Shown here: positions 27,395 to 30,826 of the stretch, in pieces
Layout: each line of letters begins with the position of its first letter
How positions within the stretch are numbered: the first letter of the stretch is position 1
Source: Spizellomyces punctatus DAOM BR117
Taxonomy: Eukaryota > Chytridiomycota > Chytridiomycetes > Spizellomycetales > Spizellomycetaceae
Length of the DNA stretch: 64,000 nt
Assembly (NCBI RefSeq): GCF_000182565.1
Contig: NW_015971553.1
Span: forward strand, 186,001-250,000
Reading direction: 5' to 3'
Made by a program: the position numbers and the translations under genes
Notes under the pieces: model-generated
Database searches by the model: none
What the model was told of the DNA's origin: nothing
Seen by the model: the letters and a program-made list of their open reading frames with translations, nothing else

Positions 27395-27598
27395 TATGGT
27401 TGTGTTTTGAAGAGTGAGTGAAATAAAGTGCACTCAGTCCATGCAAGCAGGTGGAATGATGTCAAGAAAAGCTTGGCAAGTGGTTCCGAGGTTGACCCTC
27501 AAATATCCCTAGGATCTGTGATGACGATGCTTACATAATGCCCCGTTTTCGCACACATCACACCAGTATTGAGAAAATAAAACGAGTTCAAAGGATAA

Positions 27599-27602
27599 CA
27601 TA
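27599..27602 (+). other. CATA at the left insertion boundary (candidate target-adjacent motif)
   Basis: The four bases before the left end are CATA, of which TA is duplicated at the right end. From memory, CATA is the target-adjacent motif reported for the S. punctatus Fanzor. Its position next to the left end is as expected for TnpB-like systems. Confidence 0.75.
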
Positions 27603-27630
27603 GTGCGGAGCCGATGGGTATTGGCCCTAG
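27603..27630 (+). repeat. left terminal inverted repeat of the Fanzor element
   Basis: 28 bases starting GTGCGGAGCCGATGGGTATT. It pairs with the right end except for two mismatches (A/G at position 12 and C/A at position 24 of the repeat). Confidence 0.93.
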
Positions 27631-27728
27631 TGCAATGATTCCAACCAATTTAATCATAATTTTACTCGATTTAGGCAAATGAACTATGGTGCGATGCATA
27701 AAAGATGCTCCACCATTGAAAAACGGGT

Positions 27729-27773
27729 CCAATATGTGCGGGAATTTTCGCAGTTGCCACATTTCTATATAAA
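27729..27773 (+). promoter_or_regulatory. Fanzor promoter inside the element (CCAAT and TATA boxes)
   Basis: CCAAT at 27729-27733 and TATATAAA at 27766-27773, the latter 77 bases before the ATG at 27843. Both lie inside the left end, so the element brings its own promoter. The leader between them is pyrimidine-rich. Confidence 0.55.
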
Positions 27774-27842
27774 CCCCTCCACTATCGTCTCTCCCTGCCC
27801 ATTTTCCCAGGCTTTCTTTCATCTTTTTCCACAGATATCATC

Positions 27843-29759
27843 ATGCCGCCAAAGAAGAAGCAAAAGCTTGAAAGGCTCAAAAAACTCGACAAACCCACCT
27901 TACATACCTGCAACAAGACGTCCTTTGCAAAGGCTTTCTTGCCTAATGAGACCTACCGGCAGCGTCTTCTAGATTACATCGCCATCATCCATCAACTCGC
28001 TGACCATGCTTCCCACGCTCTCAAATTCTACATCCTCTCTACATCCACATCGTCTTTCCCGGTTGTTCACGAAGATACAATCGAAGCCATTCTCTATCTT
28101 CTCAACAAGGGGGAGGCTTGGCATCCAAGAAAGGAAGCAAAGAAGGCATGGCGGGATTGTTTGTTGCCATATGTTCAACGGTACTGCCAAATCGTCGGCT
28201 TCATTCATCCAAATCTACGAGGCGAGCAGCAGTCAATTAATTACCTGACAGTGAGTATGATGACGAACCTGAAAGTCAACGTTCAAGAGCATTTCATGCA
28301 GATGCTGCTCCGGTACATTAATCTGCGGTTCGACGTGAAGGGACAGAAGCAGCGACTGCCACCGAAAAGCGATGCGCGAAAGGCTTTCTTTACTCGGCTA
28401 CGCTACTTGAAGTCGGTTTTCCTTTTTGATGTGGTGCCCGAGTTGGAGTTCCTGGATGACTTGACACCATTGGAGAGCGAGGTTCTTGAAGAGATTTGGT
28501 CATTGGATCTCCCATTCCTTCCTAACGATCCCCTTGCCTACGCCATTGTTGCTGATCCGATGTCATTTTTTCCCGCGTACTGCAAACTCTCTGGGCTGTA
28601 TGAACAATATGGCTTCCAACGGTTCAGTGCGATACCTCTGCGCCGCTCGCTCATTCAAAGTCACGTGCGAATCGACACCATCATCCTGTACCAGCATATC
28701 CTTTGCATCACGCGGCGAGACGCAGAAACTGTCGAAAAGGATGATCTGTGGATGCGCGTCTGCAATCTATGTACCAAGGCTTTTCGGTCTCGCTGTGGTA
28801 TGCATTTTGAAGGCTCAATCACCACGGATGGAGCCTCGGTGTCTGTATACCTAAAGCACCCAGAAGCAGACAAGTATGGAAAGCGCGGAGCGAGAAAGTC
28901 AGCAAACACGGTGGCTGCAGAGGTTAAAGCGCTTTATGTGGAGAACAACTTACCTGCTTGTCGAGCAGCAGAGAATGTCGTCGTTATCGACCCAAACAAG
29001 CGCGACATTCTCTACTGCCAAGACAGCAATGGTACGACATTTCGCTACACCGCCAACCAGCGAGCCGTGGAGACTGGAAGCCGGCGGTTTGCAAAGAGAC
29101 GAGAAGCAATGAAGGAAGAAGCTGGAGTTGATCTCATAGAATCACGAATACCATCCCACAAAACAATGAACCTCATGGACTTCACTCGCTACCTTCTCGT
29201 TCGCCGCGCTGATTGGGATCGTCGCAAGGAATTCTATTCGCATCCTGCTCATACTCGATGGAAATGGCACTCCTTCATAAACCGTCAGAAGAGCGAATCA
29301 GACCTCATAAGTAACATGCGCAACAAGTACGGTGAAAACTTTACTGTTGTGATGGGTGATTGGAGCGACGCTGGTCGAACTGCGAGATTTCAGACCTCAT
29401 CAAAGACAAAAGGCTGGCGCACCCTCTTTAAGCGCAACCGCATTGATTGTTTCCTTCTCGACGAGTACAAGACCTCATCTGTTTGCCCTCGCTGTTCCTC
29501 ATCTGAGTTTGTGGAGAAAAAATTCAAAACACGACCTCATTCAAGACCTTGGCGCCGTCGTGAAGGCAAGATTGAAAAAGTCCACGGACTGCTGGGTTGT
29601 ACCAACCCTAACTGTTTGCAGCAAGCCTGGACATCGGGAATGCGCTACTGGAATCGAGATATGCTGTCAACCTGCAACATGCTATTGATTGTGAGATCAA
29701 TGTTGGATGGACACGGTAGACCAGAAGTGTTCAGCAGGAGTGTTCCAGCCGTAGCGTAG
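27843..29759 (+). CDS. SpuFz1: Fanzor RNA-guided DNA endonuclease (eukaryotic TnpB homologue)
   Basis: An intronless ORF of 638 residues in a neighbourhood where almost every gene has introns. The start codon has a basic nuclear-localisation-like N-terminus (MPPKKKQKLERLKKL). Residues about 20-375 are the helical and wedge/recognition region. The RuvC nuclease follows: D383 in VVVIDPNKRD (RuvC-I), the VVMGDWSDAG strand at 502-511 (RuvC-II region, no Glu at the canonical place), E541 in FLLDEYKTSSVCPRC, a zinc finger with C548, C551, C586 and C591, and D606 in RYWNRDM (RuvC-III). I believe it is identical or nearly so to SpuFz1, described in 2023 as an RNA-guided nuclease that cuts DNA with a guide RNA from the element's right end. 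All catalytic residues are intact, so the copy looks functional. Confidence 0.95.
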   Translation: MPPKKKQKLERLKKLDKPTLHTCNKTSFAKAFLPNETYRQRLLDYIAIIHQLADHASHALKFYILSTSTSSFPVVHEDTIEAILYLLNKGEAWHPRKEAKKAWRDCLLPYVQRYCQIVGFIHPNLRGEQQSINYLTVSMMTNLKVNVQEHFMQMLLRYINLRFDVKGQKQRLPPKSDARKAFFTRLRYLKSVFLFDVVPELEFLDDLTPLESEVLEEIWSLDLPFLPNDPLAYAIVADPMSFFPAYCKLSGLYEQYGFQRFSAIPLRRSLIQSHVRIDTIILYQHILCITRRDAETVEKDDLWMRVCNLCTKAFRSRCGMHFEGSITTDGASVSVYLKHPEADKYGKRGARKSANTVAAEVKALYVENNLPACRAAENVVVIDPNKRDILYCQDSNGTTFRYTANQRAVETGSRRFAKRREAMKEEAGVDLIESRIPSHKTMNLMDFTRYLLVRRADWDRRKEFYSHPAHTRWKWHSFINRQKSESDLISNMRNKYGENFTVVMGDWSDAGRTARFQTSSKTKGWRTLFKRNRIDCFLLDEYKTSSVCPRCSSSEFVEKKFKTRPHSRPWRRREGKIEKVHGLLGCTNPNCLQQAWTSGMRYWNRDMLSTCNMLLIVRSMLDGHGRPEVFSRSVPAVA

Positions 29760-29853
29760 AACGTAGATTGGTTAGATTAGGTTTTCCGAGCCGGTTGTCG
29801 CGCGGTTCAATCCCTGGTGCGGGTGCTAGTGCCAATACCCACCGGCTCCGCAC
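29760..29853 (+). ncRNA. candidate Fanzor guide RNA (fRNA / omegaRNA) scaffold
   Basis: The stretch between the Fanzor stop codon and the right end can fold. GAGCCGGT (29788-29795) pairs perfectly with ACCGGCTC (29841-29848). Inside, GGGTGC (29821-29826) can pair with GC and ACCC (29831-29840) around a TAGT loop. By analogy with TnpB and Fanzor systems, the scaffold RNA overlaps the 3' end of the gene and runs out of the element into the flank, which acts as guide. The 5' end of the RNA cannot be read from sequence and may lie inside the ORF. Confidence 0.75.
29826..29853 (+). repeat. right terminal inverted repeat of the Fanzor element
   Basis: 28 bases that end CCGGCTCCGCAC, the reverse complement of the left end at 26 of 28 positions. 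Part of this repeat also forms the 3' strand of the predicted guide-RNA stem. Confidence 0.93.
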
Positions 29854-29877
29854 TATCTATAGGTTATGAAATCAAAT
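29854..29877 (+). other. TA duplication and presumptive guide sequence in the right flank
   Basis: The flank reads TA, then TCTATAGGTTATGAAATC. RNA that reads through the right end would carry this flank as guide. Whether the TA belongs to the scaffold or the guide cannot be decided from sequence, because the site before insertion also has TA there. Confidence 0.6.
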
Positions 29878-29977
29878 TACAAATAAATACATCAATGAGA
29901 CGAGTGCCCTGGTGCAAGATCTACCATCTGCACTACTCTTCTCAATAATCTTGCCATTAATTATCTTAGCAGACCAA

Positions 29978-30826
29978 CTATTCCGTTTGCCTTCTTTGGG
30001 CCACAACCGCGGTTGCCTGAGGCATCATATCGGGAAACCATTTCGGCCATACATATCCATACATGACAACCCAAAAAGCCAAGCCTGCAATTGTTCCTGC
30101 AATTTTCTCTTGCCACGTGTGGAAATAAACGCTCGTCGCGATGAGCATCGTGTACCAGAGAAGGAGGAGGAAAATGAGAACGCTGGATAGGATTGCGGTT
30201 GCGTTTGCGTATCGTGGACGGACGACTTGAGGTCTGACTAGGAGTTGAAGTTCTTCGTAAATAAAGAGGGACATGTGGATAAGAATGCTGTAAATGGGAA
30301 AAGGTGAGCCGTGACATTCGTATACCATCATCCAAACCCTGTCAAAATACTCACAAACAATGCCCTGACGTATCAAACCCAATCCACTCTCCCCCATTCC
30401 GAACACAAATCCGTGGATGTCCGTGCCCATCAATGCTGCACGTTCCAGACACTAGTAATACGCGGTCAAATAGCGAATGTCCAAACGCCCACTGAGCAAA
30501 CAACACCCAGTAGCTCGTTGCTGCCGTCCAGCGTATGACGGCACGTCGACGGTATCCCGGTGGCGAGGCAAAGAGGGCAAACAAAAGGAGGGTGACGCCT
30601 GTCCAAAACTGTGCGTAAAAAAGGCTATTGGGTTAGGGGTTTGTCACCACAGGCGCAAAACGACGTGTAGCAACTTTACCCATCCACGCTTGGCAAAGTA
30701 TACATTGAGAGGATTTCGTTTATTCGAGAAGACAGATGGTGGTGGTGGGGCAAAAGTGTGAAGAATGGAGCCAACGAGTACAGTCAAAGAATAGAATAAA
30801 AGGAGGTTTCGTTGGTATCTCTTCAT
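29978..30826 (-). CDS. FIT-family (FITM/Scs3) lipid-droplet protein
   Basis: Three exons (30826-30680, 30608-30355, 30287-29978) give 236 residues. FIT proteins are ER-membrane acyl-CoA diphosphatases needed for lipid-droplet budding and ER lipid balance. Recognisable blocks: NKRNPLNVYFAKRGW near residue 40, FWTGVTLLLFALFASPP, the signature GGEWIGFDTSGHCF (first catalytic His, near residue 130), and VYFHTWQEKIAGTIAGLAFW (second catalytic His, near residue 190). Six hydrophobic segments are visible. The short tail (MPQATAVVAQRRQTE) is variable. The frame upstream of the chosen ATG is open but has no ATG. The gene's 3' end faces the right end of the Fanzor element, 125 bases away. Confidence 0.82.

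Follow-up and report, generated by a model that had tools for sequence, protein, structure and literature searches.

Background

The closest described system is SPu-1, which was reported in the consulted parts of Bao & Jurka 2013 (PMC3627910) with 33-bp terminal inverted repeats (TIRs), putative TA duplications and 17 full-length copies. The consulted sections of Saito 2023 (PMC10432273) report 42 Fanzor loci and 134 ghost loci in Spizellomyces punctatus, together with inverted repeats, a conserved CA ahead of the left inverted repeat, the structure of SpuFz1, a 75-nt omegaRNA and a 14–15-nt guide; CA is reported at the left inverted repeat of ghost elements as well. RNA-guided DNA cleavage by SpuFz1 was demonstrated in the same work, its TAM was given as CATA and changing any TAM base abolished cleavage. 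SpuFz1 binds the 3′-end omegaRNA, whose guide is the host sequence immediately beyond the right end of the element, and the known reader of the CA is the Fanzor TAM contact (PMC10432273). In 11 Fanzor loci other genes are embedded according to this work, Gypsy/Ty3 being named among them and read as possible past transposition. Strong selection or recent duplication behind the Fanzor copies is left open there, and the discussion describes the biological role of Fanzors as still unknown.

PpFz1 of Parasitella parasitica (PDB 9CF0) belongs to the same Fanzor1 family but is distant in sequence and has the TAM 5′-ATN according to the consulted part of PMC11423790. That part gives the TAMs of GtFz1 and SpuFz1 (CATA, TTAA) in an order opposite to that of PMC10432273; the genomic left flanks in S. 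punctatus fit CATA for SpuFz1. TnpB of IS200/IS605 likewise has a RuvC triad, a four-Cys zinc finger, a right-end guide RNA and a left-flank TAM (in part from PMC10432273). SPu-1 is unlike IS200/IS605 in that it has TIRs and a TA duplication, contains no TnpA and leaves a target footprint that is partly palindromic. In the published SPu-1 and SpuFz1 accounts, as far as these were consulted, we did not find the split of the target footprint, the dS and omega values or the retrotransposon enrichment that are described below.

Identity and structure of the window element

The window analysed here is a stretch of 64,000 nucleotides of the S. punctatus genome. By its sequence, the element that it holds is certainly an intact SPu-1 carrying SpuFz1, and as such already published. 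The copy spans positions 27603–29853 (2251 bp) with TA adjoining both ends (27601–27602 and 29854–29855, forward strand). Its terminal arms, a left TIR at 27603–27630 and a right TIR at 29826–29853 on the reverse strand, are identical at 26 of 28 positions, and with the TAs included the inverted arms (27600–27630 and 29826–29856) extend to 31 nt that are 94% complementary. On the left, CA in the flank and the TA duplication together make CATA (27599–27602, forward strand), which equals the SpuFz1 TAM published in PMC10432273. TIRs, a TA duplication, a single ORF and an element of about 2.1 kb are what define SPu-1, and all were found in the window copy at its length of 2251 bp.

An ATG ORF on the forward strand at 27843–29759 (638 aa and stop) encodes SpuFz1 and is the sole long ORF inside the element; the remaining ATG ORFs of at least 80 aa that lie fully inside it measure 80–97 aa and all overlap the SpuFz1 frame. 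In the alignment to solved structures the window protein was the same as SpuFz1 (PDB 8GKH) at all residues 2–638 and matched PpFz1 (PDB 9CF0) with E 4.9e-53. The RuvC residues D383, E541 and D606 are present, as are N385, cysteines 548, 551, 586 and 591 of the four-Cys zinc finger and a further cysteine at 611. A Pfam search with the SpuFz1 protein returned 0 families at E values up to 1, a Pfam model match not being what defines Fanzor1, and membership therefore rests on the direct match to the solved Fanzors. The match to a characterised Fanzor1, the RuvC D/E/D residues and the four-Cys zinc finger together place the protein in Fanzor1.

The omegaRNA scaffold was assigned to 29781–29855 on the forward strand, its extent of 75 nt being inferred from the published length (PMC10432273, consulted in part), so that the right TIR falls within it. 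By the guide length given in the same source, the guide corresponds to the first 14–15 nt of host DNA past the right end (29856–29870, forward strand), and CATA joined to this guide is the predicted empty-site target. A first-pass annotation of the window had described a 2251-bp element with 28-bp inverted termini, a TA target duplication and a single intact 638-residue nuclease gene with RuvC residues D383, E541 and D606 and a four-Cys zinc finger, and had taken the protein to be SpuFz1. Each of these readings was borne out, including the kinship to Fanzors, which was recovered in the alignments to 8GKH and 9CF0. Its claim that the element limits, target duplication and guide flank were newly read did not stand, as these are published in PMC3627910 and PMC10432273, as seen in the consulted parts. 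No difference from the SPu-1 and SpuFz1 of 2013 and 2023 was found within the element, the protein at 2–638, TIRs, TA duplication, omegaRNA region and CATA all being the same.

Copies in the genome

The host assembly (G000) comprises 24.0 Mb in 29 contigs. The SpuFz1 ORF gave 70 matches in it and an 18-nt TIR pattern gave 74 (60 exact and 14 with one mismatch); in these counts, as in that of the omegaRNA below, several matches may share one locus. The reversed 18-nt control gave 34 matches at up to 3 mismatches, and the 23 listed TIR matches with 2–3 mismatches are for this reason mostly noise. The omegaRNA had 41 matches including that of the window itself, and one of the 40 others was only 34 nt long. 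Its fold was weakly better than that of shuffled sequences (z −1.88, with 8 of 200 shuffles equally good). No tRNA or Rfam match was found, the searches covering the whole window and 27400–30000. Ghost elements were not recovered in the assembly with the omegaRNA DNA search, an omegaRNA core pattern or a guessed ghost inverted repeat (1 hit).

The motif GGTTCAATCCC lies at 29804–29814 inside the omegaRNA and recurs, with no more than 3 mismatches allowed, in the 41 sites hit by a 24-nt pattern. It resembles a Pol III B box; the B-box-like GGTTCAATCC was considered as a putative Pol III promoter of the omegaRNA.

Two loci at contig 9 (L100 and L101, C9:617-625k) represent a second, distant and decayed Fanzor subfamily with protein 58–60% identical to SpuFz1. 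At contig 17 an inverted left-end fragment of another SPu-1 copy (C17:397559-397723) lies about 70 bp past where the intact copy L004 ends on the right, and no left end belonging to L004 itself was found; L004 and the displaced fragment are a rearranged or nested pair.

Target footprint of SPu-1

Shared termini were read in the one assembly at 35 left and 38 right ends whose outer flanks are distinct, and this does not refute the first-pass annotation. Copies with identical flanks were collapsed, the right end of L010 was left out of the counts on account of its altered inner sequence, and L111, L131, L133, L134 and L135 yielded no ends at the TIR threshold used. Left of the TA, A was present at −1 in all 35 left ends and C at −2 in 31 of them; one of the 35 is the displaced fragment beside L004, without which CA is seen in 30/34. 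The four exceptions carry T at −2 (C16:381k, C5:920k, C18:524k and C21:317k) and are partial or split copies. Among the 14 copies with ORFs of at least 600 aa, the 13 that have their own left end all show CA-TA. The mirrored TG right of the TA was found in only 4 of 38 right ends as opposed to 31/35 for CA on the left (Fisher p 5e-12). ACTA, not CATA, was present at 38/38 right ends and the guides were distinct in all 38.

The flanks were further compared with a background of the 2899 TA sites of the window. At −4, deviation from background was observed on both sides (p 1e-7 and 1e-5) with no difference between the sides (p 0.35), and the deviation at −3 was weaker on both sides (p 0.005 and 0.03), again with no side difference (p 0.88). 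At −1 and −2 the left and right sides differ (p about 1e-6), the right side showing no departure from background at −2 (p 0.56) and a slight one at −1 (p 0.026). The shared palindromic preference is chiefly T at −4 and A at +4, centred on the TA, and the palindrome rests mainly on −4, as −3 on the right (p 0.027) is no more deviant than −1 on the right (p 0.026). The footprint is thus partly palindromic about the TA, as a symmetric cut-and-paste transposase would leave it, while the CA is one-sided and lies outside the element and outside the omegaRNA.

An IS605-like insertion without duplication predicts the same junctions and was rejected since the −4/+4 preference is palindromic about the TA. 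The marks of an IS200/IS605-like element (no TIRs, no duplication, a one-sided target motif) are not those found in SPu-1, which has TIRs and a symmetric −4/+4 preference; the junctions by themselves would fit either assignment.

Proposed retention by cleavage of the empty site

The left CA provides the TAM on one side only and outside the element, from which we infer that a copy is retained if the nuclease is able to cleave the empty allele. SPu-1, which lacks a transposase, would be moved in trans by a TA-targeting cut-and-paste transposase. After excision, the SpuFz1 RNP would cut the uninterrupted CATA-guide sequence on the sister chromatid or homologue, and repair from an occupied copy would then restore the element or spread it to the cut site. 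The own right end, which reads ACTA-guide, would be spared given the strict published TAM. Copies landing without CATA on the left could not be retained in this manner and would be lost, leaving the one-sided CA, and selection for retention would keep each ORF open. Taken as a whole, retention through SpuFz1 cleavage of the empty site is the account that we consider probable, and copies appear to survive at sites that, once empty, their own RNP is able to cut. An empty allele was not seen.

As right ends read ACTA in 38/38 cases and the guides all differ, each copy is predicted to target the empty counterpart of its own site and not to cut itself. With the window guide, the only one searched, CATA followed by its first 14 bases was matched nowhere in the assembly with one mismatch or none. 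At 2 mismatches this target matched its own right end (ACTA) and one site in contig 21, and at up to 3 mismatches 10 matches were obtained versus 29 in the reversed control.

The main rival to retention is a transposase that recognises CATA by itself and sets the orientation of the element, in which case the CA would reflect insertion preference and not survival, and the TAM would have evolved to match as in IS200/IS605. The TAM and the transposase target coincide in IS605 elements, A at −1 is invariant in the 35 left ends, and the target preference of a mobilising enzyme could itself be one-sided. The subterminal sequences also differ between the ends of SPu-1, by which end recognition could be asymmetric. 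Against this, the preference at −4 and more weakly at −3 is palindromic about the TA, as near-identical TIRs and a symmetric TA target predict, and a reader of the CA would need to act at one end only. On this evidence we regard a transposase that reads the CA as unlikely.

Retention through cleavage of the empty site predicts the loss of insertions that lack CATA, and the same test fits other TIR-borne Fanzors with a known TAM. The split footprint separates transposase preference from nuclease need by sequence alone. Whether a eukaryotic RNA-guided nuclease that works as a drive for retention or homing has left a selective footprint in the genome, in the form of a palindromic transposase footprint with a one-sided TAM, private guides and long-open ORFs, is to us an evenly balanced question; if true, such a drive would be a testable answer to the role of Fanzor in the host.

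Selection on the ORFs

Selection was evaluated on 21 loci, made up of the 15 best ORF matches and 6 chosen loci and hence not a random sample, 14 of which carry an ORF of 600 aa or more. For the 91 pairs of the 14 intact ORFs the median dS was 0.515, dN 0.084 and omega 0.154, with omega spanning 0.13–0.28; the closest intact pair had dS 0.046 and omega 0.23. An interrupted copy with 6 stops, at dS 0.048 from its nearest intact relative, had omega 0.67, and its contrast to the closest intact pair was modest (Fisher p 0.03 on substitution counts). A second interrupted copy had omega 0.39 at dS 0.075. The other five of the seven interrupted copies gave omega values of 0.15–0.26, inside the intact range, which indicates that most of their divergence predates their death. 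The interrupted-copy control is accordingly informative only for the two copies with close intact relatives. The dS and omega values favour selection on mostly old lineages. Intact ORFs could be kept by the movement of mobile lineages or by host use; pairwise omega cannot separate the time before insertion from that after it.

Stops in degenerate Fanzor copies were nearly all TGA (71 of 78 over the ORF-match rows). The CpG ratio was low in six of the seven interrupted copies (0.58–0.85, the seventh at 0.99) and was 0.92–1.07 in the 14 intact ORFs. It was ordinary in the 2.1 kb outside interrupted copies (0.85, with 0.87 for the window). The excess of TGA and the loss of CpG look like CGA to TGA decay of methylated DNA.

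Host use would make each copy a domesticated gene, retained because it serves the host, for instance by defending it against other mobile DNA. The omega of 0.15 at a median dS of 0.5 over 14 ORFs and the normal CpG in these speak for such a role, but the guides in 38/38 cases are a distinct host flank, the window copy's guide, the sole guide searched, is without a close target elsewhere, and other mobile families do insert into Fanzor loci, which together make domestication improbable. It is more improbable still that these are plain neutral transposon copies with intact ORFs that arrived recently and an inert CA: dead or interrupted copies are common (7/21 loci lack a 600-aa ORF and there are 7 further interrupted copies) and one intact pair is young at dS 0.046, but this is the only one of 91 intact pairs with dS below 0.2, the next being at 0.249 (0.195–0.199 by a second alignment), and the one-sided CA coincides with the TAM.

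Candidate mobilising transposase

Retention through cleavage of the empty site calls for a transposase acting in trans. SPu-1 shares with Tc1/mariner the TA duplication with a palindromic preference but has no DDE transposase of its own, SpuFz1 being the sole long ORF inside it. It is filed as non-autonomous, without assignment to a superfamily. A search for an autonomous partner by shared TIRs with 18-nt and 24-nt patterns at up to 3 mismatches, in which some lone ends were followed, gave no end pair assignable to a transposase element. The inserts examined inside Fanzor copies turned out to be either retrotransposons or large elements that have long inverted repeats.

A DDE_3 search gave 2 matches, one intact gene and one fragment, while a DDE_1 search gave 0 matches, its controls likewise giving none, so that this zero does not speak for absence. 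The intact gene is a lone 402-aa Tc1/mariner-type (DDE_3) gene (L136:1327-2535, at C3:533344-534552 of the assembly) without TIRs in the 3.4 kb examined. It is a possible trans-acting mobiliser, by family alone, or a domesticated gene.

Insertions into Fanzor loci

Seven interrupted copies were picked for their long inserts, and the LTR search was performed genome-wide. One LTR family was found in 7/7 of these copies, in two of which (C1 and C4:353-372k) it lies inside a larger insert and not directly in the Fanzor. Clean LTR junctions show 4-bp duplications, for example CTCC (C8:958-976k) and TCAT (C9), while that at C10 is not clean. One open reading frame of this family encodes a Ty3/gypsy polyprotein that includes a chromodomain.

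Genome-wide, the LTR pattern gave 64 ends and the reversed control 0. Nineteen of the 64 ends are no more than 60 bp from a Fanzor ORF match versus 0.56% expected by length, and flank alignment adds three more Fanzor-joined ends. The chromodomain Ty3/gypsy LTR directly adjoins Fanzor sequence at no fewer than 14 loci (e.g. L029:1224, L035:1924 and L016:1161). By hand grouping, the 64 ends correspond to about 45 insertions; from the area of Fanzor DNA, 0.19 of these events would be expected to fall there. With Fanzor spans set by hand, 3 LTR ends fall outside these but no more than 10 kb off, two of them being the distal ends of elements inserted in Fanzor, and 25 ends lie farther away. Measured against area as the sole reference, Ty3/gypsy is joined to Fanzor loci far above expectation. 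The target of the retrotransposon may be silenced mobile DNA generally, since several other insertions sit in large elements with long inverted repeats.

Such large elements break Fanzor copies at C1, C4:353-372k and C16, the last of which also holds the LTR element; at C5:369k the break of a Fanzor by a large element is seen by a 60-bp match only. Large inserts at three loci (L021–L024, L025–L028 and L033–L034) measure about 17–35 kb with nested inserts counted and have inverted repeats of about 0.4–1.36 kb. A Copia-type polyprotein in a single frame that a stop interrupts, and which in addition contains a chromodomain and a Retrotrans_gag domain, was observed at L022:723-5330, and the large element at C4 (L033–L034) encodes a D5_N (primase-like) domain.
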